In this document: positions 7,522 to 64,000 of the stretch, piece after piece
Position numbering within the stretch: the first letter of the stretch is position 1
How the letters are laid out: each line of letters opens with the position of its first letter
Source: Amanita rubescens
Taxonomy: Eukaryota > Basidiomycota > Agaricomycetes > Agaricales > Amanitaceae
Length of the DNA: 64,000 nucleotides
Assembly: GCA_015039365.1 (NCBI GenBank)
Contig: WION01000242.1
Span: 16,468-80,467, forward strand
Direction: 5' to 3'
Program-made: the position numbers and the translations under genes
The notes under the pieces: model-generated
Database searches by the model: none
What the model was told of the DNA's origin: nothing
Seen by the model: only the letters and a program-made list of their open reading frames with translations

Positions 7522-10500
7522 TAGAAGACCAGGGAGAAGCGGCGTTAATTATCCAAGTCAACGACAGAAAAGAAAAACCCGTATACATTTCAGCATATGC
7601 CCTTATTCCCCATGAGTCTAGTTCGTTTTCGCCTTCTATTTCCGATTCCAGTTGCAAAGAATACCGCGCGCGTTTGATTTTGGACGCTTTTATCCAGTTT
7701 GAAGAAAAAGAAGAAAAGAAAGAAGAGGATCGAGCTTCGAGCGCCTTCATACGCGCTCACTTGAATTCAACAAAAGATGTTTCAACATCACAAAGTCCTG
7801 TATGGACGAACCTTATAACACCTTTACACCAGGGCGTTGCCACAAGCGGCGTTCTCTTCAATTCGGTTGACAGCCCCACGTTCGACGACGTTCGTTCAAC
7901 GGCTAGTTCACCGCCCCCAGTAGCAGTTTTTGGAAAGAAATACAAGCCTGTAGCGCAGAAAGTCAAACCAGTCATTAGCGCGTTACCCCAAGAGTTTAGA
8001 ATCATACGAAATATTATCGGCGACCCCCTTAAAGATATGCCGAAACTAGAAGTTAGACCACCGGCGTTTATTCCGACAGGGAGATATAGCGAGGAGAGGA
8101 AGGAAGCGGTAGATGCGGTTCACGACGGCGAGTTCCTCTGGCCAGAAGAGAGAAAGTTGATGCACCATTTCATGATGTTACAGAACGAAGGTTTTGCGTG
8201 GAGCGATCCGGAGCGGGGAAGTTTCAAGGCGGAGTATTTCCCTCCAGTAGAGATTCCGACGATACCTCATATCCCGTGGATTCAGAGGAACATACCGATA
8301 CCTCCAGGGATCTACAACGAAGTTTGCAAGATTATCAAATCGAAGATAGACTCGGGCGTTTATGAACCTTCAAATTCGTCGTACCGGTCGCGTTGGTTTT
8401 GTGTGGCGAAGAAAGATGGGCGGTTGAGGATAGTGCACTCGTTGGAGCCTTTGAACAAGGTTACGATTCAGCATTCGGGAGTTACACCCATTCCGGAGCA
8501 CTTAGCGGAGCAATTTGCGTGTAGGCCGTGCGGCGCGATGTTGGATCTTTATGTCGGCTACGACGAGCGTTTACTCCACGAAGGGTCTCGAGACTTGACG
8601 ACCTTCCAGACTCCGTTTGGCTCGTTGCGGCTGGTTACACTTCCTATGGGATGGACGAACTCAGTCCCTATCTTTCACGACGACGTCACTCACATCTTGC
8701 GATCCGAGATCCCCGATTTCACTATTCCATATATAGACGACGTACCTGTTAAGGGTCCAGCCTCGACATACAAGTTAGAAGACGGGAGTTTCGAGACAAT
8801 ACCGGAGAATGCAGGAATTAGGCGGTTCATTTGGGAGCACTTTGCGAATTTGAACAGGATTGTACAGAGGATGAAGCATGCGGGAGGCACGTTTTCCGGC
8901 AAGAAGCTCACATTATGCGCCGCGGAGATCACTGTCGTCGGCCACGTGTGTACCCCTGATGGACGTATCCCCGATCGGAAACGAGTAGCTGCGATCGTAG
9001 CGTGGGGCCCTTGCCAGTCTTTAACCGACTTGCGCGCGTTCTTGGGCGTGACAGGACTGTTGCGAATATACGTGTTGGACTTCTCATGTCGAGCGGCGGC
9101 TCTGATTCGTCTATTAAGAAAGGGAGAAGACTTTGTCTTTGGAGAAGAACAGATCAAGGCTCAGGAGGATATCAAGCAAGCAATACTCGACGCACCTGCG
9201 CTAGTACCTATCGACTATGAATCTGGAGCTATGGTTATCCTCGGAGTGGATTCTTGTCCTAACGGCACTGGCTACTACTTGGCGCAATGCGATTTGACCA
9301 ATCCGAAGATTCGGCGCTACAGTCGGTTCGGTTCTATTACCTTCAATGATCGAGAGCGGCGGTTTTCTCAAGCAAAGTTAGAGTTGTATGGGCTGTATAG
9401 GGCGATGAGGGAGTTGAAGATGTACATTCTGGGCGTCAGGAACCTAGTGGTGGAGTTGGATGCGAAATACATCAAGGGTATGCTCGAAAATCCAGACATT
9501 GCGCCGTCGGCTTCGATCAATAGATGGATTCTGGCGATTCTTACATTCCACTTCACGCTTGTTCATGTTCCCGGAACTCACCACGGCGCGGATGGACTGT
9601 CTCGGAGACCTAGGCAACCAGAAGATGAAGTGAGAGACGAAGAGAAGCTAGACGAAGAATTTGACGACTGGATCGACAACCTCTACGGCTTTCTGCATTT
9701 TATTAATCCGTCCCCAATGTTGTCTCAGGTGTCTCAGACCAGCGCTCAGAGATGCGTCGCTACCTTCGCTAGTCACCTTATCACTCAGGAAAGCGAGAGC
9801 GTCGGCGTGTTTAGCTTATCGAACAAGAATGAAGGCTTCGATTATTCTCAGGTTCCTCGTTCAGAGCATGCAGAAGAAGATGACGATCGGTTAGCTTCGG
9901 TAAAGGAGTTTCTTAGGGATCTGAAGAGGCCGGCTGCGATAGCGGACAAGGAGTATCGCAGTTTCTTGCGCTATTGCTTGAGGTTCTTTTGGAAGGACGG
10001 GAAGCTTTGGAGAAAGGATGCGAGAGGAGAGCACAAGTTGGTTATGGAGAAGGATAGGAGGCTAGAGGTGCTTGGGGAGTGTCACGACTCACTTGGACAC
10101 AAGGGTTTCTATGCGACAAGAGCGCTCGTTCAAGAACGGTTCTGGTGGCCCTATATTCACCGCGACGTTATGTGGTTCGTTCAGACTTGCAAGCTATGTC
10201 AAGAGCGTCAATTGCGGCTGTTTCACATACCTCCTATCGTTGCTCAGCCGGCGCCTCTGTTTACGAAGGTCTACCTCGACGTGCTTCATTTACCAGCTTC
10301 GAACAAGTTCCGTTACATCATACAAGCTCGGTGTTCCCTTACGCACTATCCGGAATACCGCGCGTTGCGTACTCAGACGGCTCAGACTGTAGGCGAGTGG
10401 GTCTTCCAAGACTTATTGTGTCGATGGGGAGCCCTTTCAGAAATTGTTACCGACAACGGCGCTCCAATTATCAGTGCTTGCGAGCATCTATCGAAGAAGT

Positions 10501-10952
10501 ACAAAGTGAATCATATTAGAATTTCCGGCTACAACTCCCAGGCGAATGGTTTGGTCGAGCGGTCTCATTTCGACGTTCGGCAGTCATTGTACAAGGCGTG
10601 CGGCGGAGACGAAACGAAGTGGGCGAGAGCGGTCCCAACAGTCTTTTGGGCGGAGCGCGTTACAGTTAGAAGGCGTATGGGCGTTTCGCCTTTCTTTGCG
10701 GTTACAGGAACTCACCCTATATTGCCATTGGATATCGTGGAGGCAAGCTATTTGTTGCCACCCCCTGAGGCGTTCTTATCGACGACGGAGCTGATTGCGA
10801 GGAGAGCGGTTGAGTTGCAGAAGAGGCACGAGCATGTGGCGGCGTTGAGAGACAAGGTGTTCGTCAATCGTATCAAGGCGGCTCGAAAGTTTGAGCTGGA
10901 TCACGCAACGGTAATAAAGGATTTCGACTTCAAGACCGGAGACCTAGTGCTA

Positions 10953-12195
10953 CACGTCCAAATGAGAAAAATGTTAGATGTGCCTGAGAGCGCAACTGTT
11001 AATATGAGATCTGTAACACGCCATTGTGACATCAGAATAACCTGACGATCGGAATTTTTCGAGATGTTGATACAACATCTAAACCCTGGTTATCAGCACA
11101 ATGTTTGACTTGGCAACAATTTTTATATGACCGGACAATGTCACCCTGATGTTTGCCAGTAGAATGTTTGCCTAACATCTGCTTCTGGGGCATAATTTAG
11201 ACATCTTTATTAGATACCACATTGACGTCGACATCACGTTGACCTTACCATGATGTCCATTATCATATTTTTTTTGTATTCGACATGTACACTCTCGATA
11301 AGTACAACATACCACTAATCTATAATACTATGATCATGAATACATCCGAGGGAGGGAGCACGAGGCTCCAATTGCGAGCGGTCGCGGGTGTGGATGAACA
11401 GGAATAAAGGCAAAGTCCATTATTTGGACATACAAACAAAGACATGGCATCTAACACCGTACACGAACGAACCCATACCCCCTTGGCCACCGCGGCAACA
11501 CGCACAATACTCGGTATGTGTCCTCCCCCCCCTCGCCAGCACCCAAACACGGTTTAGAATTTATTAACTCAACCCAATTACTAGAACCCGCCACTGCTCT
11601 TCAAGAAACCCTTTGCCACCGGCCCACCGCGGCAACACTCGCAACACTCACAATACTCGATATGTGTCCTCCCCCCCTCGCCCGCACCCAGATGGCCCAT
11701 CGACCAAACAGTCCCCCGCAGCGCCACAGTGGCTTCCATCTTTTGCCCGGATCACATAGCATACCCACACACGACGCAGACGCGGTCGACAGACTCGACA
11801 CCCTGTCATTACCACAACGTGACCATATCACCCCTAATAGATTTTTATGAGTAGTATCTTAGCATGCAATATATTGAATGTTCCGAGAAATGTAACAGTC
11901 GAGCAGCAACCACATTTATTTGTGATGAGCTATCTGAGTCAATCTAGTGAATCGTGATGTCGTGGTGACATTGTGGTAGTGTCTGCCTGATGATCATCGG
12001 GATATGATACTTGGGATGCCCTCACAACATCACAGGAAGATGTATTTCCTCTGTCCATATTCAGACATAGGTATCAGATCGGATAAAATTGATCGGAGAA
12101 TACAGGCGTTTTTATATGCAATAAACATTCGTTACGGGCTTGTCACAATATTTGTATTGAAATACTTTTTCCCGCCTCAGGATCACTTGGACGTG
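10953..12195. mobile_element. 1.24-kb TA-flanked non-autonomous DNA transposon in E1 pol
   Basis: The element has 13-bp imperfect terminal inverted repeats. The left end is CACGTCCAAATGA, and the right end is the complement of CACGTCCAAGTGA. It is flanked by TA at 10951-10952 and 12196-12197. Removing it with one TA restores an uninterrupted pol frame, which confirms the borders. It encodes no recognisable transposase. Inside are two diverged direct copies of a roughly 60-bp GC-rich segment (about 11486-11548 and 11622-11690). TA duplication fits Tc1/mariner-like mobilisation, but the family is inferred only. Confidence 0.88.
11486..11690. repeat. Internal direct repeat pair in the TA-flanked element
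   Basis: Two copies of a segment containing CCACCGCGGCAACAC, then ACAATACTCG and a run of C followed by TCGCC, lie about 136 bp apart. They are diverged, and the second has an extra CTCGCAACA. No function is apparent. Confidence 0.75.
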
Positions 12196-19109: not shown

Positions 19110-22100
19110 TCAGAGTTTCCTACATTTCTTATATTCGTCAAGGATATCCTCGGTGTTTGACAAGTTCCTTTGGGGTTCCCAAGTGTTTTCGCTTGTATCA
19201 TAGCCTTTCCATTTGACAAGAAACTGTAATTGTCGTCCGATCTTTCGGTGTGCGAGAATAGCTTCTATTTCGTATTCTTCTGATCCTTCTATTAGATCGG
19301 GTGGTGGACGTGTATCGTTAGGTCCATGGAATTCTGTTTCTTTAAATGGTGAAAGTAAACATGCGTGGAAAACGCTGTGTATCTTCCATTGTTTCGGTAG
19401 GTCTAGTTGATAGGTGACAGGTCCTAAGACTTTCTTTATCTTGAAGGGTCCTTCTCGTTTGGGTGCGAGTTTACGTGACTGATAAGGAATGCGTAGGTTT
19501 TTTGAATCTAGCCAAACCTTTTCTCCTTCTTTGAACGGTTTAGAGTGTTTCATCGTTCATTGTGCCATTTTGAGGCGTGCAAGGTCGTGTGCTGCCAGAG
19601 CTTCTTCTCTTGCTTTGATCAGGAGTCTGATGCGTTCATCTGCTACAGGGGTAGCTGATTGTTCTGTAACCTGGGGTAGTGCCACAGGGTTAGATCCATA
19701 TATGAGATAGAACGGTGATTGTTTCAGTTCTTCATGCGTTCTTGAATTATGAGCGAATTGTGCGATAGGAAGTATCTTGTTCCATTTGTCTGGTTCATAA
19801 GCGCAGAATATGCGGAGGTATACTTCAAGTACGGCGTTATAGCGTTCCGTTTGTCCATCTGTTTGAGGGTGAAAAGCGGTGCTCATCTTGTGTTTGATCT
19901 GTAGTGCACTGGTTATCCCTTTGAAGACTTTTGCTGCGAATTGCGGTCCTCTGTCAGATATCATTATGTCTGGTAATCCGAAGTTCTTGAAAACTTCTTT
20001 GATGTAGAGGTCAGCGGTTTCAGCTGATGTAATAGTTTTATTACAGGGACATAGAATTACTCCCTTTGAAAGTCCTTGGTCGACCACGACAAAGATAGAA
20101 TCAAATCTGTCACTGGTTGGTAGATCGGTGATGAAATCCATAGTAATCTGTTGAAATGGTCGGTGTGCGTGGGATTTAATCGGCATTAGGGGTGCGGCGG
20201 TGGGGTGTGTATTAGGTTTCATCTGTTGACAGGTAAGACATCCGTCGATAAAACTTTTGACAAGTGTTGTCATTCTAGGCCACCAGTAGTGTTCCCTTAG
20301 TAGGCTAAGTGTTTTGAAGAATCCAGGGTGTCCTGCACTCGGTGCTTCATGGTATTCTTTGATAATAGATCGGCGAAGATCGGAGTCTAATGGAACGTAT
20401 GCCTTATTTTTAAATAGGATGATTCCGTTATCTTCGGTCCAATCGGTGATTGCTGTGCGAAGGGGCGCTGTTCCTTTCTCCTTTAAGCATCTTCTAATGG
20501 TTTCAGCAAACTCGTCGGTTTGAGTTGCGTTCTTTACTTGATCTCGGAGATCTTCGGCGATGACTTGGATAAATAGTGAGTCAGGGAGCATCGTGACTGT
20601 TTCGTCATCTTCTTCTCCATTAGTGTGATCAGGTCGGCGGGATAAGGCATCCGCTTGAGTTAGTTTTGCTCCAGGAACGTGAATTAGTTGGTAATTATAT
20701 CTTGAGAGATTATTCCACCATCTTGCTTGTCTAGCTGTGAGACGTTGTGGTGCGCGGTAATAGGTTAAGTTTTTGTGATCGCAGTGAATAGTGAGTGTGT
20801 GTTCTGCTCCAAGCAGTAGGTATTTCCATTCGTCAAGGGCGTAAATTATGGCAAAGAGTTCTCGGTCGTAGATTTGCCAATTTCGTTCAGTGGGTGTAAG
20901 TGCGTGTGAGAGATATCCACAAGGGTGTAAATCTCCGTTTTCGTCTTTCTGCATTAAGGCGGCTCCGACAGCCCATTTAGATGTGTCTGTTTCAAGTATG
21001 AAGGGTTGATTGACATCTGGCATCTTTAGTACTGGTGCTGTTACGAAACTTTCCTTTAATGAGTCGAAGGCGACTCTACATTCTAGTGTCCATTCCCATA
21101 TCTTGTTTTTCTTCGTTAAGTCGTGAAGGGGTCGTGCGAGGTGCGCGAATCCGGATATGAAACGTCTGTAGTAATTTCCAAATCCAAGAAACGAGCGTAC
21201 TTGTTTAACTGTTGTCGGAGGGGGCCAGTCTCTGATTCCAGCGAGTTTTATTGGATCCATTTTTATCGTGTCTTTCGTGATTATCATGCCTAAGAAGTCC
21301 ACTTCTTCGGCGGCAAATTTGCATTTTTCAAGTTTCAGGTAAAGATCGTGTTCTTTCAATTTTGCGAGTACTAGCTTTGTTCTTTTCTCGAGTTCTTGTT
21401 TGTTGCGCGCGTGTATCAAGATGTCATCCATGTAAATGGCGATCCATCCTTCGTTCATGAAGTCCCTGAAGTAATCGTCCATCATTGCTTGAAATGTTGC
21501 CGGTGAATTGCGTAATCCGAAGAACATAACTGTCGGTTCGAATAGTCCTTTATTCGTGATGAATGCGGCTTTCCATTCGTCTCCTTCTTTGATACGAACA
21601 TTGTTGTATCCCCATCTGATGTCTAGTTTCGTAAAATATTGCGATCCTTTAAGTTGTAGCATCAGATCGGATATGAGTGGTAAGGGGTATGAGTTTGGTT
21701 TCGTATGTTCGTTCAAGTATCGGTAGTCCTGGCAGGGTCTGAGTGTTTTGCTATCCTTCTTTTTGACATAAAAGAATGGCGCTGCCTGCGGAGATTTGGA
21801 TGGTCATATATATCCTTTAGTTAGTTGTTCTTTGATCCATTCATCAAGCGTATTTTGTTGTAATGGTGATATTGGGTAGATCTTTCCTTTCTTTGGTATA
21901 AAATCTTCGCGAAGTTCAATTGCGTGATCCCATGATCTGCGGTCCGGGAATCGTTCTGACGCTTGTTTTTCAAATATCTCTTTCCATTCGAGATACTCAG
22001 GAGGTAGCGTGATTTCCTTCTGATCGGTGTTGTACTTATGTTCCATTTGTTGAGCTGGTGAATAGCGATTAATCGTGATCTCGTCATAATCTTCTTCAGT

Positions 22101-33220: not shown

Positions 33221-34537
33221 ATGTGTCATCCCAATACCCGTCAGGAGGTTTTGAAGATAATCACGGATTGGGTTAAAGATTCACACCCGCGCCAGCGTAT
33301 CCTGTGGTTAAACGGTCCCGCAGGAGCCGGAAAATCTGCCATCGCCCAAACAATCGCTGAACGCTGCTCAAATAAGCAGTTGGCAGCGTCCTTTTTCTTT
33401 CTTAGGAACAGCATAGACAGAGGTTCCGCAACTCTTTTGTTCACTACATTGGCCTGGCAACTTGCAAAGAGCATACCTGAAATCCTTCCCTACATCGAAT
33501 CGGCCGTGGAGGAGGAACCTCTTCTTCCCACCAAATCCATTGATATCCAGTTCAATCGCCTCATCGTACAGCCGTTCCAGAAACTTCTACACGACAAGCC
33601 TGACTTTCGCCCAACAAAGCTTGTCGTCATAATCGACGGTGTGGACGAATGCGCACCTGATCAAGACCAGTTACAGCTCCTGGGACTCATTGGCAATGCA
33701 CTATCGAACGCACAGATCCCATTACGTTTCTTGATGTGCAGCAGAGCAGAAGCATACATTCAAGAAACTTTTGGATTAGAAGGCATCGCAGAAATTACTA
33801 ATCAAATAACATTGGACCACCGTTTCTCTCCCGATGTCGATATTCGAAGATATTTGAACGACGAATTCACTCGTATTTGTACCGAGCGAAAACTTTCGGC
33901 ATCTACATGGCCACTAGACAGAGCTATTGACCAACTAGTCTCGAAGTCATCTGGGCAATTCATATATCCTTCTACTGTGGTCAAGTTCGTCGACGACATG
34001 GATGGCGATCCCAGAACACAACTAAATATCATATTGAAGACCCATTCAGCCGACTTTTCCTCGCCATTTGCGGACCTGGACCAGCTTTACATTCAGATAC
34101 TCTCACAGCAGTCGGACACCAGAATGCTTAGGGATCTATTCACACTGATTATCGCCTTACGTGAACCAGACATCGGATTTGTCTGTCGGCGACTCCGGAT
34201 CAGTGAGGAAGAACTGAAGCGCAAGTTACGTAGGCTTCATTCCCTCGTTCGGATTTCAGAATTGGTCATCGACACGTATCATCTTTCCCTCCACGATTTT
34301 TTCCGCGACAAGAAGCGTGCGGGTAAGTACTTTATACACCCGGCGCGGGTCGCATGCGTGCGGTTACCAGACACCACGCGTCCGGGGCTGCAAATGGCGG
34401 TTATGATGCCATTCGCAGTTGCGGGAGTCGCTCTGGGTGCGGCCCTCACCGTGGCAACGCTTGGACTCCCAGTCTACTTCTACTGGCGTAAGCTAAAAAA
34501 GCTAAAACCGCCTCGCCGCAGCTTGGACTCGCCTTGA
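33221..34537 (+). CDS. NACHT P-loop NTPase (NLR-like), N-terminally truncated copy 1
   Basis: This is a single frame of 438 residues. It begins at MCHPNTRQEV, which aligns with internal positions (about residue 83) of the three downstream copies. The FQINN leader exon and its intron are therefore missing, and an in-frame TGA lies just upstream. The P-loop GPAGAGKS is near residue 31, Walker B LVVIIDGVDEC near residue 140, and the MCSRAE sensor-like motif follows. A winged-helix-like segment includes LRDLFTLIIALREP, followed by TYHLSLHDFF. The C-terminus has one hydrophobic span followed by a basic tail (YFYWRKLKKLKPPRR). Fungal NACHT proteins act in non-self recognition and cell death. The truncation suggests this copy is non-functional or altered. 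Confidence 0.85.
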   Translation: MCHPNTRQEVLKIITDWVKDSHPRQRILWLNGPAGAGKSAIAQTIAERCSNKQLAASFFFLRNSIDRGSATLLFTTLAWQLAKSIPEILPYIESAVEEEPLLPTKSIDIQFNRLIVQPFQKLLHDKPDFRPTKLVVIIDGVDECAPDQDQLQLLGLIGNALSNAQIPLRFLMCSRAEAYIQETFGLEGIAEITNQITLDHRFSPDVDIRRYLNDEFTRICTERKLSASTWPLDRAIDQLVSKSSGQFIYPSTVVKFVDDMDGDPRTQLNIILKTHSADFSSPFADLDQLYIQILSQQSDTRMLRDLFTLIIALREPDIGFVCRRLRISEEELKRKLRRLHSLVRISELVIDTYHLSLHDFFRDKKRAGKYFIHPARVACVRLPDTTRPGLQMAVMMPFAVAGVALGAALTVATLGLPVYFYWRKLKKLKPPRRSLDSP

Positions 34538-35279: not shown

Positions 35280-36877
35280 ATGGGATCCAAGCACAACACT
35301 CCGGCTGGCAATGGCTTACAGCATAGGCGACTGCATCCAAATAGCGAGGCTGCTACACAATCTACGGGACTCTTCTCAGGCTCTCACCACTTCCAAATCA
35401 ACAACTGCCATCTTAATGACTTTAGTCGGTACGCAGAGAAAGGGACATGTGAATGCCGTTCGCCCTTTGGAGTCTATGATCACCTTTCTAATTGCGATTC
35501 ATAGGTCTCGAGTACCTTCAAAAGTACATTTCGGAAGGTGCACTTCATGATTCCATGGCACGTTTTCCTCCACCCAGGTGCCATCCCCAAACCCGTGAAA
35601 AGGTCTTGAAGATAATCACGGATTGGGTTAAGAATCCACACGCGCGGCAGCGTATCATATGGTTAAACGGCCCCGCAGGAGCCGGGAAATCTGCCATTGC
35701 ACAAACGATTGCTGGGCGCTGCTCGGGCGAGCAATTAGCAGCGTCATTTTTCTTTTTTAGAAACAGCTCGGACCGAGGTACTGCGACGCGCTTATTCACA
35801 ACGTTGGCCTGGCAACTTGCAAAGAACATACCTGAATTGCTTCCCTACATTGAATCGGCAGTCGAGACGGAACCTCTCTTTCCCACCAAATCCATTGATA
35901 TCCACTTCGATCTTCTCATAATACAGCCATTCCAAGAACTTTTACGTGACAAACCAAACTTTTGTCCACAAAAGTCCCTGGTCGTAATCGACGGTGTAGA
36001 CGAATGCGCGTCTGATCGAGACCAGATGCTTTTCCTGAGGCTCATCGGGGAGGCACTTTCAAAGATACATACCCCATTACGTTTCCTCATATGCAGCAGA
36101 CCAGAAGCCCACATTCAAGCAACGTTTGAATCAAAAGTCATGACGGGGATCACCCATACAATTTCGTTAAACGATCGGTTCGAACCAGATGATGACATTC
36201 GAAAATATCTGAAGGACGAATTCGCTCGTATCTGTGTGGAGCACAAACGTTTCAAGTTATCACCTGGATGGCCACCGGGTAAGGCGATCGACCAACTAGT
36301 CTTGAAATCGTCCGGGCAGTTCATATACGCCTCTACTGTGGTCAAGTTTGTCGACGACATATATGATGATCCCAAAGAACGACTTGAGATTGTGTTGAAC
36401 ACCCGTCCAGTTAACTCTGAATCGCCGTTTGCAGAGCAAGACCAGCTTTATACCCAGATACTTTCGCAACAACCAAACGTCAGGCTGTTGCGAGATCTAT
36501 TCACGCTGATTATCGCCTTGCGTGAACCAAAAATGAAATTCGTCTGTCGACGACTCCGGATCGGGGAAGAGCAATTAGAGCGCAAGTTACTCAGGTTACG
36601 TTCGCTCGTTCGTATTTCATACGGAGGTGAAATTACGACGTATCATCTATCCCTACATGACTTCTTTCTGGATAGGAAGCGTGCGGGGAAGTACTTTATA
36701 CATCCGATTCGGGTTACCTTTGTGCGACTACCAAAAATAATGAGTGCAGCGAGGGGACCCGTAATCACGATGCTCATTGTGCCTCCGATACTTTTTGGGT
36801 TTTGGGCCTTTGTCACTCTGTTGTATGGAATAGTTTGTCGCGTCGATGTATGGAATAAAGTGAAAGGGGAGAACTAG
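35280..36877 (+). CDS. NACHT P-loop NTPase (NLR-like), copy 2
   Basis: Exon 1 is 35280-35424, followed by an intron of 80 nt with GTCGGT donor and branch-like TTCTAAT, then exon 2 at 35505-36877 (505 residues). The donor was chosen because the same position is used in copies 3 and 4 and keeps the phase. The leader contains FQINN. The P-loop GPAGAGKS is near residue 104, Walker B VVIDGVDEC near 210, and ICSRPE follows. The C-terminus (about residues 470-500) has one or two hydrophobic spans. An ATG 4 nt upstream opens a short overlapping frame (16 codons), also present in the other copies. Confidence 0.85.
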
Positions 36878-39979: not shown

Positions 39980-41820
39980 ATGGGATCCAAGGACAACATC
40001 CCGACTGGCAGTTCGAGCTTGCGGCGCATGCGGCCACACTCAAATAGCGAGGTAGAAACACAACCTATCGGCACAGGACTCTTCCCAGGCTCTCACGACT
40101 TCCAAATCAATAACTCCCAGCTTATTGATTTCAGTCAGAATGTCTATTACCCCAAGGAGGGGACATGTAAATGCCGTTTGCCCTTTTGATTCTATAACCA
40201 CCGTTCTAATTGCGAACCATAGATCTTGAGCACCTTCAAAAGTATATTTCGGAAGGTGCACTTCATGATTCCAAGGCACGTTTTCCTCCACCCAGGTGCC
40301 ATCCCCAAACCCGTGAAGCGGTCTTGGAAATAATCACGGATTGGGTTAACGATCCACACGCGCGACAGCCTATTATATGGTTAAACGGCCCCGCAGGAGC
40401 CGGGAAATCTGCCATTGCCCAGACGATTGCCGGGCGCTGCTCGGGCGAGCAATTAGCAGCTTCGTTTTTCTTTTTAAGAAACAGCTCTGACCGAGGTTCC
40501 GCAGTTTGTTTATTCACAACTTTGGCCTGGCAACTTGCGCAGAACATACCTAAATTGCTTTCCTACATCCAATCGGCCATCAAGACAGAACCTCTCCTTT
40601 TCACGAAATCCCTTGATGTCCAGTTCGACCATCTTATAGTACAGCCATTACAAGAACTTTTACGTCACGAACCGGACTTCTGTCCACAAAAGTCTCTCGT
40701 CATAATCGACGGTGTAGACGAATGCGCGCCTGATCGAGATCAGATGCTCTTTCTGAGGCTCATTGGCAACGCACTGTCAAAGATACATATCCTATTACGT
40801 TTCCTTTTATGTAGCAGACCAGAACTGCACATTCAAGAAGCGTTTGAATCACAAGTCATGACCACGCTCACCCGTTCAGTTTCATTAAACGATCAGTTCG
40901 AGCCAGATGATGACATTCGAAAATATCTGATCGACGAATTCGCTCGTATATGTGCGGAACACAAGCTTTTCAAGTTGTCACCTGGATGGCCACCGGTAGG
41001 CACGATCGGCCAGCTAGTCTCGAAATCGTCCGGGCAGTTCATATACGCCTCTACTGTAGTCAAGTTCGTCGACGACATATATGATGATCCCAGAGAACGA
41101 CTTGGCATTGTATTGAAGACCCATCCAGTCAACTCTGCGTCGCCGTTTGCAGAGTTGGACCAGCTTTATATCCAGATACTTTCGCAACAGCCAGACATCA
41201 GGCTGTTGCGAGATCTGTTCACACTGATTATCGCCTTGCGTTACCCAAAAATCAAATTTGTCTGTCGACGACTTCGGATCAGGGAAGAGCACCTCGAGCG
41301 CAAGTTACTCAGGCTACGTTCCCTTGTTCATATTTCACACTATGATATCACGACGTATCATCTATCCCTACATGACTTCTTTCTCGACAAGAAACGTGCG
41401 GGGAAGTACTTTATACATCCCATTCGGGTTACCTTTTTGCGGCTACCAAAGATCATGAGCTTGGCGCGGGAACCCATAATTACGGTGGTCTCAATGCTTG
41501 TGATATCTCCGCAACTTGTCGGGTTTGAGGTTTTTGGCCCATTGACCTATGGAACACCGCGAACTAATCTGCTCGTCTTCCTCGTCCAATCTGCCGTGAC
41601 GGATTATCTTACCGTTTTTAATGGCTTACCCTACTTGATTGTGACGTTCTTCTTAACATGGTTCTTAGTAAAAACCCCGGTGATCGACTTGAGGCACGGC
41701 TTCACGCATGCCCTACTCCGCGTCATCCTGCTTTTTACGCGCTTCATGACCCTCTATCTCCTTATTGTCAAACTCTTCTTCCCCTCCACGTCGAGCTTAG
41801 GGCTACATACCTTACCGTAA
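39980..41820 (+). CDS. NACHT P-loop NTPase with C-terminal membrane segments, copy 3
   Basis: Exon 1 is 39980-40133 and exon 2 is 40223-41820 (583 residues). The leader has SHDFQINNSQLIDF. The P-loop GPAGAGKS is near residue 107, Walker B VIIDGVDEC near 210, and LLCSRPE follows. The conserved HLSLHDFFLDKKRAGKYF segment is near 465-480. The last about 115 residues hold roughly four hydrophobic spans (for example V-x-M-L-V-I-S-P-Q-L-V-G-F, LIVTFFLTWFLV, LLVFLVQSAV and FMTLYLLIVKLFF). Instead of WD, TPR or ankyrin repeats the protein ends in membrane-like sequence, so a membrane-acting output is possible but inferred. Confidence 0.87.
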
Positions 41821-45839: not shown

Positions 45840-48835
45840 ATCAGCTATATTAAATTCACATTACCCAACATCCTCGCAAGTGCATTCTGATCCGCCCTTT
45901 GGAGCCTCGTGTACCGCAGACGCCGCCCTCCTCCCACCCAGACCCTCATCCTCCTCCGCTTATACACTTCCTATCTCACCACATACTCCGACCCAAAAGC
46001 GTATCCGCTCAATACTTGACACTTGCTCTCGTCTCGCATTTTTGCAGAGAAGGTATAACCTTTACCCGCCTGAAAGAGAATCTTAGTTTGAGGACGAACG
46101 AATCGGGGGACACCCCAGGTGATGACCAACGCTACTTTTTTTTCTGGTCACGCACTGTATCATAATCCTTCACTTCCATTGTTGCAATGCGCTCAGGAAT
46201 GGCAGGTCATCTGGAACTGGAATTGACCTGCAGAAGTACGTTGCACATCATCAAGTTTGTTAGCAATCGCCAATGAAGAATCGCATTCCCCAAAGTTTTG
46301 GTGCTTGACTTACCAGAAGTTGAAAAGAAGGCATCGGATTTGCCACCGCGTCGAAAACATGATAAACAAGCGTGCCTGAAAATGTCGAATTGACAACCGT
46401 GGTAACCAAAGTCAACACAGCTTGAGCCTAACATCTCTCCCCTTCCAACATCCCCCAAATGAATGGGATCCAAGGACAACATTCCGACTGGCAGTTCGAG
46501 CTTGCGGTGCATGCGGCCACACTCAGATAGCGAGGTAGAAACACAACCTATCGGCACAGGACTCTTCCCAGGCTCTCACGACTTCCAAATCAACAACTCC
46601 CAGCTTATTGATTTCAGTCAGAATGTCTATTACCCCAAGGAGGGGACATGTAAATGCCGTTTGCCCTTTTGATTCTATGATCACCGTTCTAATTGCGAAC
46701 CATAGATCTTGAGCACCTTCAAAAGCATATTTCGGAAGGTGCACTTCATGATTCCCTGGCACGATTTCCTCCACCCAGGTGCCATCCCCAAACCCGTGAA
46801 AAAGTCTTGAAAACAATTACAGATTGGGTTAAGAATCCACACGCGCACGAGCGTATTATGTGGTTAAACGGCCCCGCAGGAGCCGGGAAATCTGCCATTG
46901 CCCAAACGATTTCAGGGCACTACTCGGGCGAGCAACTGGCAGCGTCTTTTTTCTTTCTTAGAAACAGCTCGGATCGAGGTGCTGCGACGCGTTTATTCAC
47001 GACGTTGGCCTGGCAACTTGCGCAGAACATACCTGAACTACTCTCCTACATTGAATCGGCCATCAAGACAGAACCTCTCTTTTACACCAAATCCCTTGAT
47101 ATCCATTTCGAGCGTCTCATAATACAGCCATTCCAAAAACTTTTACGTGACAAACCAGATTTCTGTCCACAAAAGTCGCTCGTCGTAATCGATGGTGTAG
47201 ACGAATGCGCGCCTGATCGAGACCAGACGCTCTTTCTGAGGCTCATCGGCAATGGATTCTCAGAGATACCAATCCCACTACGTTTCCTGATATGCAGCAG
47301 ACCGGAAGCCCACATTCAAGCAGCGTTTGAATCGGAAGTCATGGCCGGGATCGCCCATTCAGTTTCATTAAACGAACAGTTCAAGCCAGATGATGACACT
47401 CGAAGATATATGAAGGACGAATTCGCTCGTATCCGTACTGAACACAAGTTGTCACCTGGATGGCCACCAAGTACGGTGATTGAACAGCTAGTCTCGAAAT
47501 CGTCAGGGCAGTTCATATACGCCTCTACTGTGGTCAAGTTCGTCGACGACATATATGATGATCCCAGAGAACGACTTGACATTGTATTGAAGACCCATCC
47601 AGTTAACTCTGCGTCACCATTTGCAGCGTTAGACCAGCTTTATATCCAGATACTTTCGCAACAGCCAAACATCAGGCTGTTGCGAGATCTATTCACGCTG
47701 ATTATCGCTTTGCGTAACCCAGAAATCAAATTCGTACGTCGACGACTTCGGATCAAAGAAGAGGAACTCGAGCGCAAGTTACTCAGGCTACGTTCGCTTG
47801 TTTGCACTTCACACCGTGATATCACGACGTATCATCTATCCCTACACGACTTCTTTCTCGACAAGAAGCGTGCGGGGAAGTACTTTATACATCCCATTCG
47901 GGTTACCTTTGTGCGACTACCAAAAATCATGAGTTCGGCACGGGAACCCATAATTGGGCTGCTTTCGGTAATGCTCAGGATATATTCGGAAGTTATACTC
48001 GAGTCTTGGGCCATTGCCACATTGGTCTATGGAATAGAGCCAAAGCGGAGGACTACTAGTCTTCCCGTTAGGCTGGGAATTCTGCTCTTCCTCCTCATCC
48101 AATCTGCCCTGATGAATTACTTTGCCTTTGTTAATGGCTTACCTGCTTATTTCGTTATGATCTTCTCCTTACTCTTTTCTGGACTTTACATAGAAAGGAC
48201 CTATGGAACGTTCGAATCGAGGCGGCGGAACTTGAAGCCTCCCCTACAGTACGTCATCCTGCTTTCCCCGCACATTACCGCCCTCTGTCTCCTTATTTAC
48301 CAACTTGTCTGCCCCCCACGTTGAGCTTGGGGCTATATACCTTGCCGTAAATGTAATCTATTTCACTGCTTGCCAGAACGATCCAATCCAATAAATTATC
48401 AAAAATAAATAAAGATCGACAACAGAGACGGAGTAACGAACGAAGTATGATCTGTGCTATGTATGACCGTTTGATGGTATGTACAAGCAAGCACTCCAAG
48501 CGTGCTTGCATGCGTGCCGATTTCCAACCCCAAGAATAATACCTCACACCGCAACCCCAAACTTGGCAGAAATCTGCTCACCGGCGCCTCTGAACGCAGG
48601 ACTGGAAGACCCCCAATATGCATCGAATACGGGATCGTTGAACGTCCCGCCAGGGAGATACGCCTCCGCTTCGTCGTCTGCCTCTTCATCCTCGTCCGCA
48701 TCGCACATCCGGGCCTTTTCCTTGACCTCGATGGCGACGAACGTGGTGCCGGCAACGACCGCCTCGACTCTTTCTGCAACGGCAGGCTGAGATCCGTGTG
48801 GAAGCTCCATACAGATCTTGATTTGCCTCAAAGGC
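45840..48835. repeat. Segmental duplication, copy B (NACHT copy 4 plus F-box gene end)
   Basis: This is collinear with 39190-42270. It continues into the complete F-box gene, so this copy is probably closer to the ancestral arrangement. Confidence 0.85.
46463..48324 (+). CDS. NACHT P-loop NTPase with C-terminal membrane segments, copy 4
   Basis: Exon 1 is 46463-46616 and exon 2 is 46706-48324 (590 residues). It is very close to copy 3 through residue about 480. It has the leader SHDFQINNSQ, the P-loop GPAGAGKS, VVIDGVDEC, ICSRPE, SKSSGQFIYASTVVKFVDD and HLSLHDFFLDKKRAGKYF. The C-terminal about 120 residues hold roughly four hydrophobic spans but differ markedly from copy 3. The tail is therefore the fastest-diverging part. 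One codon block near 47450 is shorter than in copy 3. Confidence 0.87.
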
Positions 48836-60759: not shown

Positions 60760-62015
60760 ATGTGGGATGAATCAGATGATGCACTTGCATCTCGTGAGTG
60801 AAGTGTTTGTCTTGAATTGATCAAAGCTTGAGATGTAAATGACAGAGGTGATTGGTATTCGCAGGGAGCAATACAAGTGTTCCCATTTTCGTATTCTTGT
60901 CATTGGGAGGGCCAATGCAGGCAAGACTACAATCCTTGAGAAGGTTTGTGGTGTAGCAAAAGGAACAGAGCCAATCATAATCTATGACAAGATGGGTAAG
61001 TTTGACATTGAAGTCCAATTTACTTTTCAATCCTAATTGCTTTTTAGGCAGAGTACTGGTGCCTGATGAGACCCATGTGGCATCATCAATTGGGGTAAGT
61101 TGAGTGCATAAACCTCATGGACCTGCTTTCTGAGATACATTAAACTGTAAGAGAGGCATACATGACATTGAACACCAGATTACATATGGAGGAAGCAACT
61201 TCATCTTCCATGATTCCCAAGGTTTTGAATCTGGTGCAAAGGAAGAGTTAGAGGTTGTTTGGGATTTCATTGAGAAGAGGTCTGCAGCAGCTAAGCTAAA
61301 GAATCGGTTACATGCGATTTGGTATCTTTCACATTTGTCTTTTGTGCAAATAACTGATCTAGGTTTTTATATGTAGGTACTGTATACCTATGGACAGTTC
61401 TCGCCCCATTCTGCCTACAGAACTTGACTTCTTCAGTAAAGGAACAGGGAAAGGTGAGCCTTGAGCCCATATATTTGAACATGACTAATTGCTACTTCCA
61501 CAGTTCCTTTGGTGGTCATATTCACTAAGTTTGATGGACAAGTAATCCAAGAATCTGGAAAATTAAATGATATAGAAGATGATGCAGTTAAGTGGGATAT
61601 GGCCATGGAGAATGCTGAAATCACTTTTCAGACTGTTTATCTTCCTAAAGTCTTTAATACTACATATCCCCCAAAAGCACATGTGCGATTGGAAGGTAAG
61701 GACAGTAAACATTTTCTGTTTCAAAATAGGGATAATAATATTAATAGATATGGATATACCAGAGAATGACTGTCCTGAATTGACCAAGATAACTGCTGAT
61801 GCTATTGATGATGAAAGTCTACAAGAATTGTTTGTCTCAACACAAATGAACAATCTTGGCCTTTGTGTCAAATATGGACTGAAGTAAGTGATGATAAATT
61901 TTCAATTTCAACTGTTGAGTTCTTCAGACATATCCTGAGCCGAAAGAACACTTCATGGGAAGTTGTTTTTGGCATAGTCATTTCCAAGTTTCCACATTAT
62001 TGGGTATTTCACTAA
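60760..62015 (+). CDS. Small GTPase-like G-domain protein
   Basis: Eight exons (60760-60793, 60846-60995, 61048-61094, 61179-61321, 61377-61453, 61504-61695, 61748-61883, 61928-62015) close to 288 residues plus TAA. The P-loop is G32-RANAGKT-39 (GxxxxGKT), the G3-like motif is HDSQGFESG, and the G4 motif is VIFTKFD. The HAIWYCIPMD segment is typical of a G-domain family found in mushroom genomes. The C-terminal part reads CVKYGLK, then VVFGIVISKFPHYW. The last exon is the least certain: without splicing, exon 7 would stop at GLK. Homologues may extend past FPHYW, and the array of tiny exon-like units begins only about 100 nt later, so the true C-terminus may lie in that array. The cellular role is unknown. 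Confidence 0.8.
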
Positions 62016-62118
62016 GTAACCAATGTGACCACAAAAATGCTGAGCTGAAAGTAGATTGTCAGAGGAGTAAGTCTTTTGTACAAATTGTGTGGCAGCAATA
62101 ATGCAAACATTCCACAAG

Positions 62119-64000
62119 GATGTAAGTGAATTGTATTATCATTTATTATGTGCACTGAGCAGAATAATGAACAGAATGTATGTCACACTGTTCTATGAAG
62201 TTTGATAAGTGATGACAAAATATTGTATCAAGGAGATTGATGTGAGTGATACCACAATATTGTTTTTGGCAGTAGATACATATGATGTCTTAAAACAATA
62301 GTGGGCAAGTGATACTGATACAGACTTCAATGAGCACTAATATCATGATAAACAGTTTGTGAGTGATACTGAACATTCACAGCTAAGAAATCTCACTATA
62401 CATAACAGGAAGTGAGTGACACTGTAAATTTCCTGAGAAACACTCACCAAGTCTCATTCTCCAATAAACAGAGGGCAAGTTACTATTTTCTTTTTTGAAA
62501 TCAGCTCAATTTCATTTCAAACCACAACCAACAGGCAGTAAGTGACAAAACCATTTTTTTTCAGGGAGTAAAATGCCATGTATCCCATGCCACATAGGAT
62601 GTGAGTGGCTCACCAGCTTTTAAGGTGGAAACCCTTTCATCTTGATCAATTGCTGACAGAAAGTATGTGATATTTTGCTGCTGCTACTTCTCATTGAAGA
62701 CATCCCATGGTTGGTAGACTGTAAGCAATTTCATTGTTCTACAGTACAGTCTTGTGACACCTCACCCTATGACCAATAGGCTGCAAGTGGACTCCACTCA
62801 TTGTTTGTTAATAGTCTTATTTGATCACAGGGAGTAAGTGACACTGCACAGTTATTGGTATGCATGTCTCAATATTGCACAACTTACAGGAAGTGAGTGA
62901 TTATGTATGCACCTCTACATGCTACTATTCAACGTCTACAGGAAGTGAGTGTTAATGTTATGAAAGTTTGCTGTCAAGTGTTCCAATATGTGTAATCCAA
63001 TGGCAGAGAGTGAGAAATTGCATTGTTGAAACACAGCATATCTCACAGTTGTATCACCAATAGAATGTTTGTGATGCTGCAGTTATGTGGCCAGACAAAC
63101 TCACCATGTGTTATCTTATGTCCAATAGTTGGTTAGTGCTGGTGTAGCATATTAGACTCATTTCATTACATTCTCATGGCCAACAGTTTGTGAGTGACTC
63201 TGCACTTGTTCCTTTCAAAAGTCTTACATATCTCATTTCATCTCATGATCAACAGGAAGTGAGTGGTGCTGCATTTGTTGCTTTAGCATCACCTCATTCA
63301 TAATCAACAGAAAGTGAGTGAGATTGCACTTCTATGCCCAACACCTCAACACAATGGACCATAGAGAGTAAGTGATGCTCCATTTCTTTCCCAGCTAATC
63401 ATAACATATGTACTGTATCTCACACCATAACCGATAGAAAGTAAATGTCACAGCACTATTTCTTTGCCACTGGCTGATGCCTGTATCCAATGACCAACAG
63501 AATGTGAGACAGACTTTCCTTGCCATGCAGGCAAATTTCTCATCCCATACCCAACAGTATGTGAGTGAAACAGCATTTATTTCATTGCTATGCAGTCTGA
63601 CATGTGTCAATCCCTGACCTACAGAATGTAAGTAATGCTTGTCTATACCAGGCAGTCTCATTTCATCTCATTCCATGATGGACAGGATGTGAGTGACATT
63701 GTATCTTTTTCTTAAACAGTCTCCTCACATCTTGTCTATAACCAATAGAATGTGAGCAATGTTTACCAGGTTGTCTTTCCACATCATCTCTGGAACAACA
63801 GGATGTGAGTAACACTGCATTTGTTTGTCTATGCAACGGTATCACCTCATACAATGACCCTCAGTATGTAAGAGTGACCTGCATTATTTAAAGATAGTTT
63901 TAATACATCTCACCACATGACCGACAGGGAGTAAGTACATCTTTCTTTCCTTTTCCTGGATTCTCATCTCTTGACATTCAATAGTTTGTGAGCAACACCA
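62119..64000 (+). other. Array of 31 single-codon exon-like units and one 9-nt unit between intron-like spacers
   Basis: From 62117 to the window edge, acceptor AG and donor GT/GC follow each other with exactly 3 nt between them 31 times, and once with 9 nt (62233-62241). The 3-nt units start at 62119, 62175, 62302, 62356, 62409, 62472, 62535, 62598, 62660, 62718, 62780, 62831, 62890, 62942, 63007, 63064, 63129, 63187, 63256, 63311, 63365, 63438, 63501, 63558, 63625, 63686, 63749, 63802, 63865, 63928 and 63985. The spacers are 48-70 nt, the same size as normal introns in this window. Donors are mainly GTGAGTG or GTAAGTG. Three are GCAAGT (62305, 62475, 62783). Acceptors are mostly CAACAG or CAATAG, often preceded by CTCAT or CTCAC branch-like motifs. 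Spacers share a loose consensus (GTGAGTGAYACTGCATTT at the start). The units are AAT x5, GAA x4, GAT x4, TTT x3, AAA x3 and others, with no stop codon. The pattern is certain; splicing is inferred. Confidence 0.85.

Follow-up and report, generated by a model that had tools for sequence, protein, structure and literature searches.

The window, that is, the whole analyzed stretch of 64,000 nucleotides of the Amanita rubescens genome, ends inside an array of exons of a single codon each, immediately downstream of the exons of a gene that, judging from its motifs, is a P-loop GTPase. Eight exons of this gene, all on the + strand, were obtained as a hand-spliced ORF: exon 1 with the predicted start ATG (60760..60793; the public protein P0001 reads alike), exon 2 with GRANAGKTT, which we take to be the G1 (P-loop) motif, and the Pfam MMR_HSR1 match (60846..60995), exon 3 (61048..61094), exon 4 with DSQG, presumably the G3-like motif DxxG (61152..61321), exon 5 (61377..61453), exon 6 with TKFD, presumably the G4-like motif TKxD (61504..61695), exon 7 (61748..61883) and exon 8 (61928..62003), which ends in KFPHYW in phase 0. 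The 12-nt exon 9 (62055..62066, +) encodes IVRG and was placed by the residues that follow FPHYW in the relatives (VIRE or IMRE in the proteins P0002, P0006 and P0007 and, by eye, IARE in the paralog on contig C190), with the full ORF remaining open. The G1, DxxG and TKxD motifs are all present in the spliced protein, the Pfam MMR_HSR1 match falls just below the cut-off (E 2.3e-4, 21.7 bits vs 21.9, with the older exon model as the query), and solved GTPase structures give weak matches only (best E 0.006). The best protein match, likewise for the older-model query, is P0001 (A. rubescens F5887DRAFT_119034, 99% identical), a public model of 297 aa that ends in FPHYWVFH, just inside the next intron, and lacks the array altogether. 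Annotated proteins of A. brunnescens, A. muscaria and A. polypyramis match the GTPase as well. The first exon model, with exons of 22, 26 and 15 nt, was rejected because it implies an intron of 29 nt and agrees less closely with the relatives. The 12-nt exon supersedes its 22-nt exon, and the protein and Pfam searches were run with the protein of this first model.

The rest of the window harbors four NACHT/NPHP3_N NLR-like ORFs on the + strand (33221-34534, 35492-36874, 40210-41817 and 46693-48321), a 703-codon open stretch on the - strand (2-2110) with repeats that we take to be ankyrin-like, the DNA of which contains similar 99-bp tandem repeats, and two ORFs that by eye resemble retrotransposon pol (7674-11045, +; 19557-21716, -).

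The array occupies positions 62119-63987 and comprises 31 exons that are exactly 3 nt long together with a single 9-nt exon, as the earlier note had claimed. It opens with GAT (62119..62121, +), AAT (62175..62177, +) and the 9-nt exon GAGATTGAT (EID; 62233..62241, +), the surrounding peptide NEIDWF being present in P0002 as well. The remaining 29 exons of 3 nt (62302..63987, +) start at 62302, 62356, 62409, 62472, 62535, 62598, 62660, 62718, 62780, 62831, 62890, 62942, 63007, 63064, 63129, 63187, 63256, 63311, 63365, 63438, 63501, 63558, 63625, 63686, 63749, 63802, 63865, 63928 and 63985, and the array continues beyond the contig end in the copy on contig C54 (locus L010). The regularity far exceeds random expectation. 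With a list of donor hexamers that was picked after the array had been seen, 30 instances of a YAG separated by 3 nt from a donor-like hexamer are counted between 62119 and 64000 (the total of 31 includes the exon at 62119, which has an AAG acceptor), compared with 0-2 occurrences for each other gap length between 0 and 20; in 1000 dinucleotide shuffles, such gaps numbered 0.29 on average and 3 at most, and the + strand of the remaining 62 kb of the window contains 3 matches. The 31 array introns are 48-70 nt long (median 58), the range given in the earlier note, and 20 of them carry a branch-like CTNAY motif 8-45 nt upstream of the acceptor. Retention would disrupt the frame for 26 of the 31. 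The concatenated exons read DNEIDWFERADKTAGEERNLFEKRKNYNDNDYGF, without a stop, again as previously noted, and the GTPase exons 60760-62003 are stop-free and lead into the array in phase 0.

The window contains only 31 of the 55 3-nt exons of this gene because its contig, C160, ends inside the array. Rightward extension, which the earlier note had suggested, is possible with contig C54, which is 99.2% identical to C160 over 3.5 kb, with zero differences from 61376 to 64000, and in which the array continues to its full 55 3-nt exons and is followed by C-terminal exons. The complete gene in C54 is predicted to consist of 68 exons, with a CDS of 1374 nt (457 codons) that has no internal stop, and 67 introns of 44-125 nt (median 57); all array junctions are in phase 0, the predicted spliced sequence carries IVRGDNEIDWFERADKTAGEERNLFEK... 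in the order of the units, and the 3' end of the gene is the C-terminal exon shared with relatives known as continuous proteins. The earlier note further held that the intervening introns are related to one another. For the window array, this holds only weakly (mean identity of 37%, measured over the C54 copy); the array is an old one, and it is in young paralogous arrays that the relationship is strong.

The scan of the 75.7 Mb assembly indicates that this array is one of many. A pattern of two consecutive units has 3739 matches (1872 + 1867), compared with 0 + 0 for the reversed control, and since the fetched loci contain 996 chained units (counting near-copies) for 455 matches to the pattern, the assembly may contain some 8,000 3-nt exons by extrapolation, part of these on duplicate contigs. 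A search with GTPase exons gave at least 205 matches, with up to two per gene. In the 18 fetched loci, which were chosen for an array match and include near-copies, the main array consists of 26-89 chained units; the array is preceded by a GTPase match at a distance of at most 450 nt in 17 of these 18 loci and followed by the C-terminal exon in 15. The earlier suggestion that the units may continue the adjacent GTPase is supported, as far as sequence goes, in that the GTPase reading frame continues open into the array in phase 0 and in that 13 of 17 arrays match relatives (see below), but the conserved C-terminal exon downstream, present in 15 of the 18 loci, makes the array an internal segment and not the tail. 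Among the first matches listed (contigs C1-C3), eight of nine pattern clusters have a same-strand GTPase match no more than 2 kb away. In locus L026, a Copia-like pol ORF (by eye; 1-1200) is located upstream of the array on contig C3, and the nearest GTPase match among those listed is about 11 kb away from that array. Contigs C160 and C239 both terminate inside arrays, and because of this, the arrays appear to break or strain the assembly.

The content of the units suggests that they form a protein-coding segment in which each codon would be an exon of its own. Among 770 well-signalled units from 17 arrays, TAA and TAG are absent, compared with 28.7 and 4.0 expected from the base composition at each position, and TGA occurs once, compared with 15.2 expected; that one TGA is the first chained unit of L011, which is mis-chained and sits inside a GTGAGT donor (the first unit of each array, 16 of the 770, was counted without an acceptor check). 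The window piece (L009) and the near-copies L013, L022 and L025 were left out of this count and of the intron-identity, lag and shuffle counts. When the units are joined, stops make up 5 of 828 codons in frame 0, all of them mis-chained TGAs, 6 of 811 in frame 1 and 123 of 811 in the third frame (frame 2). The stop count alone cannot fix the frame because frame 1 is nearly as stop-free as frame 0; what identifies frame 0 is the phase of the exons upstream, together with the alignment to continuous relatives, and a phase-1 reading was rejected. The five chained TGA units are found in L011 (two), L015, L018 and L023 (one each). In L015, the better reading is a 6-nt exon, CAAGCA. The TGA units of L018 and L023 and the other one of L011 fall at a common site where the unit has no clear 3-nt exon and acceptor and donor overlap, so that, the 3-nt exon having been lost, two introns may be spliced there as one. 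The unit peptides share a conserved start across arrays (WFERADKTAGEER, WFEQGKKETDREIKY), one subgroup of arrays also has a conserved peptide end (KRQQFFKKDIL and similar), and residues are kept unit by unit between paralogs. The codons are restricted, with NNC, NNG and NTA being rare, perhaps because of competing splice sites.

Evidence on the reading of the units also comes from related, continuous proteins on contigs of 1446-1903 bp, presumably cDNAs of related species, which share a mean identity of 59-80% with the best-matching fetched locus. The unit peptides were locally aligned to the tails of six such proteins (P0002, P0006, P0007, P0012, P0016 and P0079), of which the first three reach the C-terminus and the last three do not, and the scores were compared with those of 300 shuffles of the unit order. 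The codon order matches the continuous proteins in 13 of the 17 arrays: in 12, none of the 300 shuffles reached the score, and in L011, 2 of 300 did. In these 13 arrays, lower scores are obtained for either of the alternative frames. One example is the alignment of EWFEKGKKETDREIKYD from L021 with KWFEKGKKESDREIEYD from P0016. The four arrays that do not beat the shuffles are the second array of L015, that of L020 and both arrays of L026, the latter two lacking a GTPase match in the fetched stretch. The stretch from DW to IL comprises 47, 67 and 50 residues in P0002, P0006 and P0007, respectively, and 50 in the C54 gene with all exons included; P0006 and P0007 also differ outside this stretch and look like different genes or alleles. 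A protein search with the tail of P0002 recovered P0002 only, whereas one with a part of P0016 returned 39 proteins, those reaching furthest into the tail, besides the query itself, being P0079 (77% identity over 84%) and P0012 (59% over 88%).

In the young arrays, nearly uniform introns alternate with scrambled codons. In L012, 2117 of the 3321 unit pairs have introns that are at least 95% identical, and the codons of these pairs agree at 35% of the bases. One exact 62-nt intron, common to 7 of the 18 array loci, is present in 139 units of these loci and is associated with 21 different codons. Pairwise comparison of these 139 units gives 8507 non-synonymous, 77 synonymous and 1007 identical codon pairs, and the diversity per codon site is 0.58-0.69, whereas the adjoining intron averages 0.015; these counts are independent of how units are paired between loci. 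The selection argument is weakened by the preference for A or T at the third base (128 of the 139 codons, compared with 187 of 294 in the GTPase exons of the window gene) because the splice-site constraint also narrows the synonymous choice. Most residues are represented by one codon, such as CGA for 27 of 27 Arg, GGA for 21 of 21 Gly and GAA for 18 of 18 Glu. Between paralogs, with units paired by aligning near-identical repeats so that one-to-one homology is not guaranteed, the divergence of the upstream flank, the array introns and the codon bases is, respectively, 1.6, 1.4 and 39% for L014-L016, 1.8, 1.0 and 44% for L014-L017, 1.4, 1.6 and 45% for L016-L017, 2.3, 0.2 and 20% for L021-L024, and 5.6, 3.5 and 46% for L012-L014. 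The contrast is smaller in near-copies: 1.6, 0.3 and 3.2% for L016-L025, and for L016-L022, 0 of 2911 upstream, 4 of 3320 intron, 4 of 162 codon and 4 of 2834 downstream bases (0, 0.1, 2.5 and 0.1%). L012 and L013 show no divergence (zero mismatches and 4 gap positions over 5378 nt). Arrays also differ in length and contain multi-unit segmental duplicates: the spans of L021 and L024 differ by 714 nt, or about 11 units of 65, and duplicates are apparent at a lag of 18 units in L012 and of 3 units in L021. Growth by tandem duplication, as proposed in the earlier note, is supported as far as the sequence goes, and the young arrays display the pattern of concerted hypervariable repeats, that is, uniform repeats with a few hypervariable codons.

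Taken together, these observations are best explained, with high probability, by a segment that would be spliced codon by codon and is hypervariable, probably serving in recognition, with recombination among introns and diversifying selection as the putative driving forces. Under this scenario, the spliceosome would remove the introns one after another, probably in the 5' to 3' direction, each step adding one residue; sequential removal appears likely because a 3-nt exon can hardly carry the splice factors for both of its introns at once. Skipping of any number of units would keep the frame. The interchangeable introns would serve as recombination tracts, such that unequal exchange or conversion could lengthen, shorten or reshuffle the peptide codon by codon with no loss of frame, and the same exchange would homogenize the introns while diversifying selection keeps the codons different. 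The usage of single codons per residue looks as if cassettes were reused, and codons ending in A or T may be favored because NAG, NTA or NGT next to a donor would create rival splice sites. The least certain part of the proposal is that the hypervariable segment between the GTPase domain and the C-terminus could be a recognition surface, in nonself recognition, immunity or symbiosis; by analogy, a variable recognition surface on a GTPase switch seems the likeliest role in view of the large size of the family, a pattern of variation similar to that seen in fungal nonself receptors, and the NACHT and ankyrin-like ORFs in the window. More tentatively, and at somewhat less than even odds in our estimate, the arrays could be likened to movable type, with recognition peptides stored as one-residue cassettes of a codon and a near-identical intron that recombination edits by whole residues without frameshift, in which case the approximately 8,000 exons of a large GTPase family would constitute a fast-evolving system of nonself recognition or symbiosis, possibly supplemented by exon skipping.

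Alternative explanations differ in how much of this evidence they can accommodate. The arrays might be libraries for alternative splicing, each mRNA keeping some of the codon exons so that one gene yields many peptides. This possibility, which is compatible with the codon-by-codon spliced segment, fits the phase 0 array junctions and the statement in reviews (PMC4986451, PMC10197012, PMC9815663) that exons of this type are alternatively spliced in Tuber melanosporum, but it is rather doubtful given the lengths of the DW-to-IL stretch (47, 67 and 50 residues in the three continuous proteins vs 50 in C54), which reveal no wholesale skipping. Repeated insertion of one introner-like intron between the codons of an existing exon could account for the exact 62-nt intron in 139 units, 7 loci and 21 codons. 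However, the 3-nt spacing that is kept nearly throughout, the A- or T-ending codons of the units (128/139), unlike those of the GTPase exons of the window gene (187/294), the multi-unit segmental duplicates in L012 and L021, and the adjacency of eight of nine clusters (among the first matches listed, on three contigs) to a single gene family all make this explanation improbable. Slightly less probable still is a dedicated process that mutates the 3-nt exon itself: the excess of diversity in codons over the adjoining intron (0.58-0.69 vs 0.015) and the distribution of the L016-L022 differences (4/162 codon vs 4/3320 intron bases) count in its favor, but the use of mostly one codon per residue looks like the reuse of existing cassettes.

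Removal of the whole block as one intron, or by recursive splicing that never retains the units, would need regular splice sites too, yet the units avoid stop triplets, and their residues are conserved one unit after another, both among paralogs and in comparison with continuous proteins; we consider this possibility very unlikely. This alternative and that of 3-bp remnants between mobile introns were both raised in the earlier note, and the conserved coding content is explained by neither. Least credible of all is an assembly artefact, a satellite or a dead gene family; the termination of C160 and C239 inside arrays might hint at an artefact, but C160 and C54 are identical from 61376 to 64000, L012 and L013 can be aligned over 5378 nt without a single mismatch and with 4 gap positions, and C54 carries a full open gene.

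If the arrays are spliced as proposed here, codon by codon, how small an exon can be and in which order the introns are removed become directly testable. The contrast between uniform introns and scrambled codons suggests that introns can buy evolvability because every intron-intron recombination is in frame. The arrays also represent a class of genes that annotation misses, as illustrated by the public model of the window gene, which ends where the array starts.

Serial one-codon exons are a kind already known, because arrays of them have been reported in the NACHT-ANK (nank) genes of the truffle Tuber melanosporum, which contain dozens of 3-bp mini-exons and are alternatively spliced (Iotti et al. 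2012, as cited in passages of PMC4986451, PMC10197012, PMC9815663 and PMC3689799); the earlier note named no serial array of 3-nt exons, but the case is not without precedent (PMC4986451, PMC10197012, PMC9815663). According to these passages, the truffle genes resemble those of Amanita in having dozens of codon-sized exons, in belonging to an expanded family and in coming from an ectomycorrhizal fungus, and their exons are reported to diversify a C-terminal recognition region; with 55 such exons predicted in the C54 gene, tens of serial 3-bp exons in one gene are found in Amanita as well. The two systems differ in that the truffle hosts are NLR genes of an ascomycete, whereas the host here is a P-loop GTPase, not NACHT-ANK, from a basidiomycete family, with the array between the GTPase domain and the C-terminal exon, and the passages on nank contain nothing on near-identical introns with scrambled codons as in the Amanita arrays. 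The HET-E/hnwd NLR genes of Podospora, as described in part of PMC4986451, share the high internal repeat identity, concerted evolution and diversifying selection that targets a few codons in each repeat. Unlike in Amanita, where the unit is an intron with a single codon in a GTPase protein, the repeat there is coding sequence, and WD repeats on an NLR protein have no counterpart here. Fungal introner-like elements are similarly near-identical short spliceosomal introns in many copies (passages of PMC4457414), but the Amanita introns are arranged head-to-tail with 3-nt spacing and, so far, beside one gene family. The 3-bp microexon of Drosophila homothorax (passages of PMC7392893) shows that a 3-nt exon can be spliced into mRNA, although it is a single exon as opposed to the tens in series that are read from sequence alone in Amanita. 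Among the matches listed from open-licence PMC papers, none describes arrays of this kind in Amanita or in any other basidiomycete, so that, within these matches, the gene family, the phylum, the scale and the contrast between introns and codons appear to be new. With the Amanita arrays, serial one-codon exons would no longer be confined to a single receptor family of an ascomycete but would also occur in a GTPase family of a basidiomycete, with thousands of exons by extrapolation.
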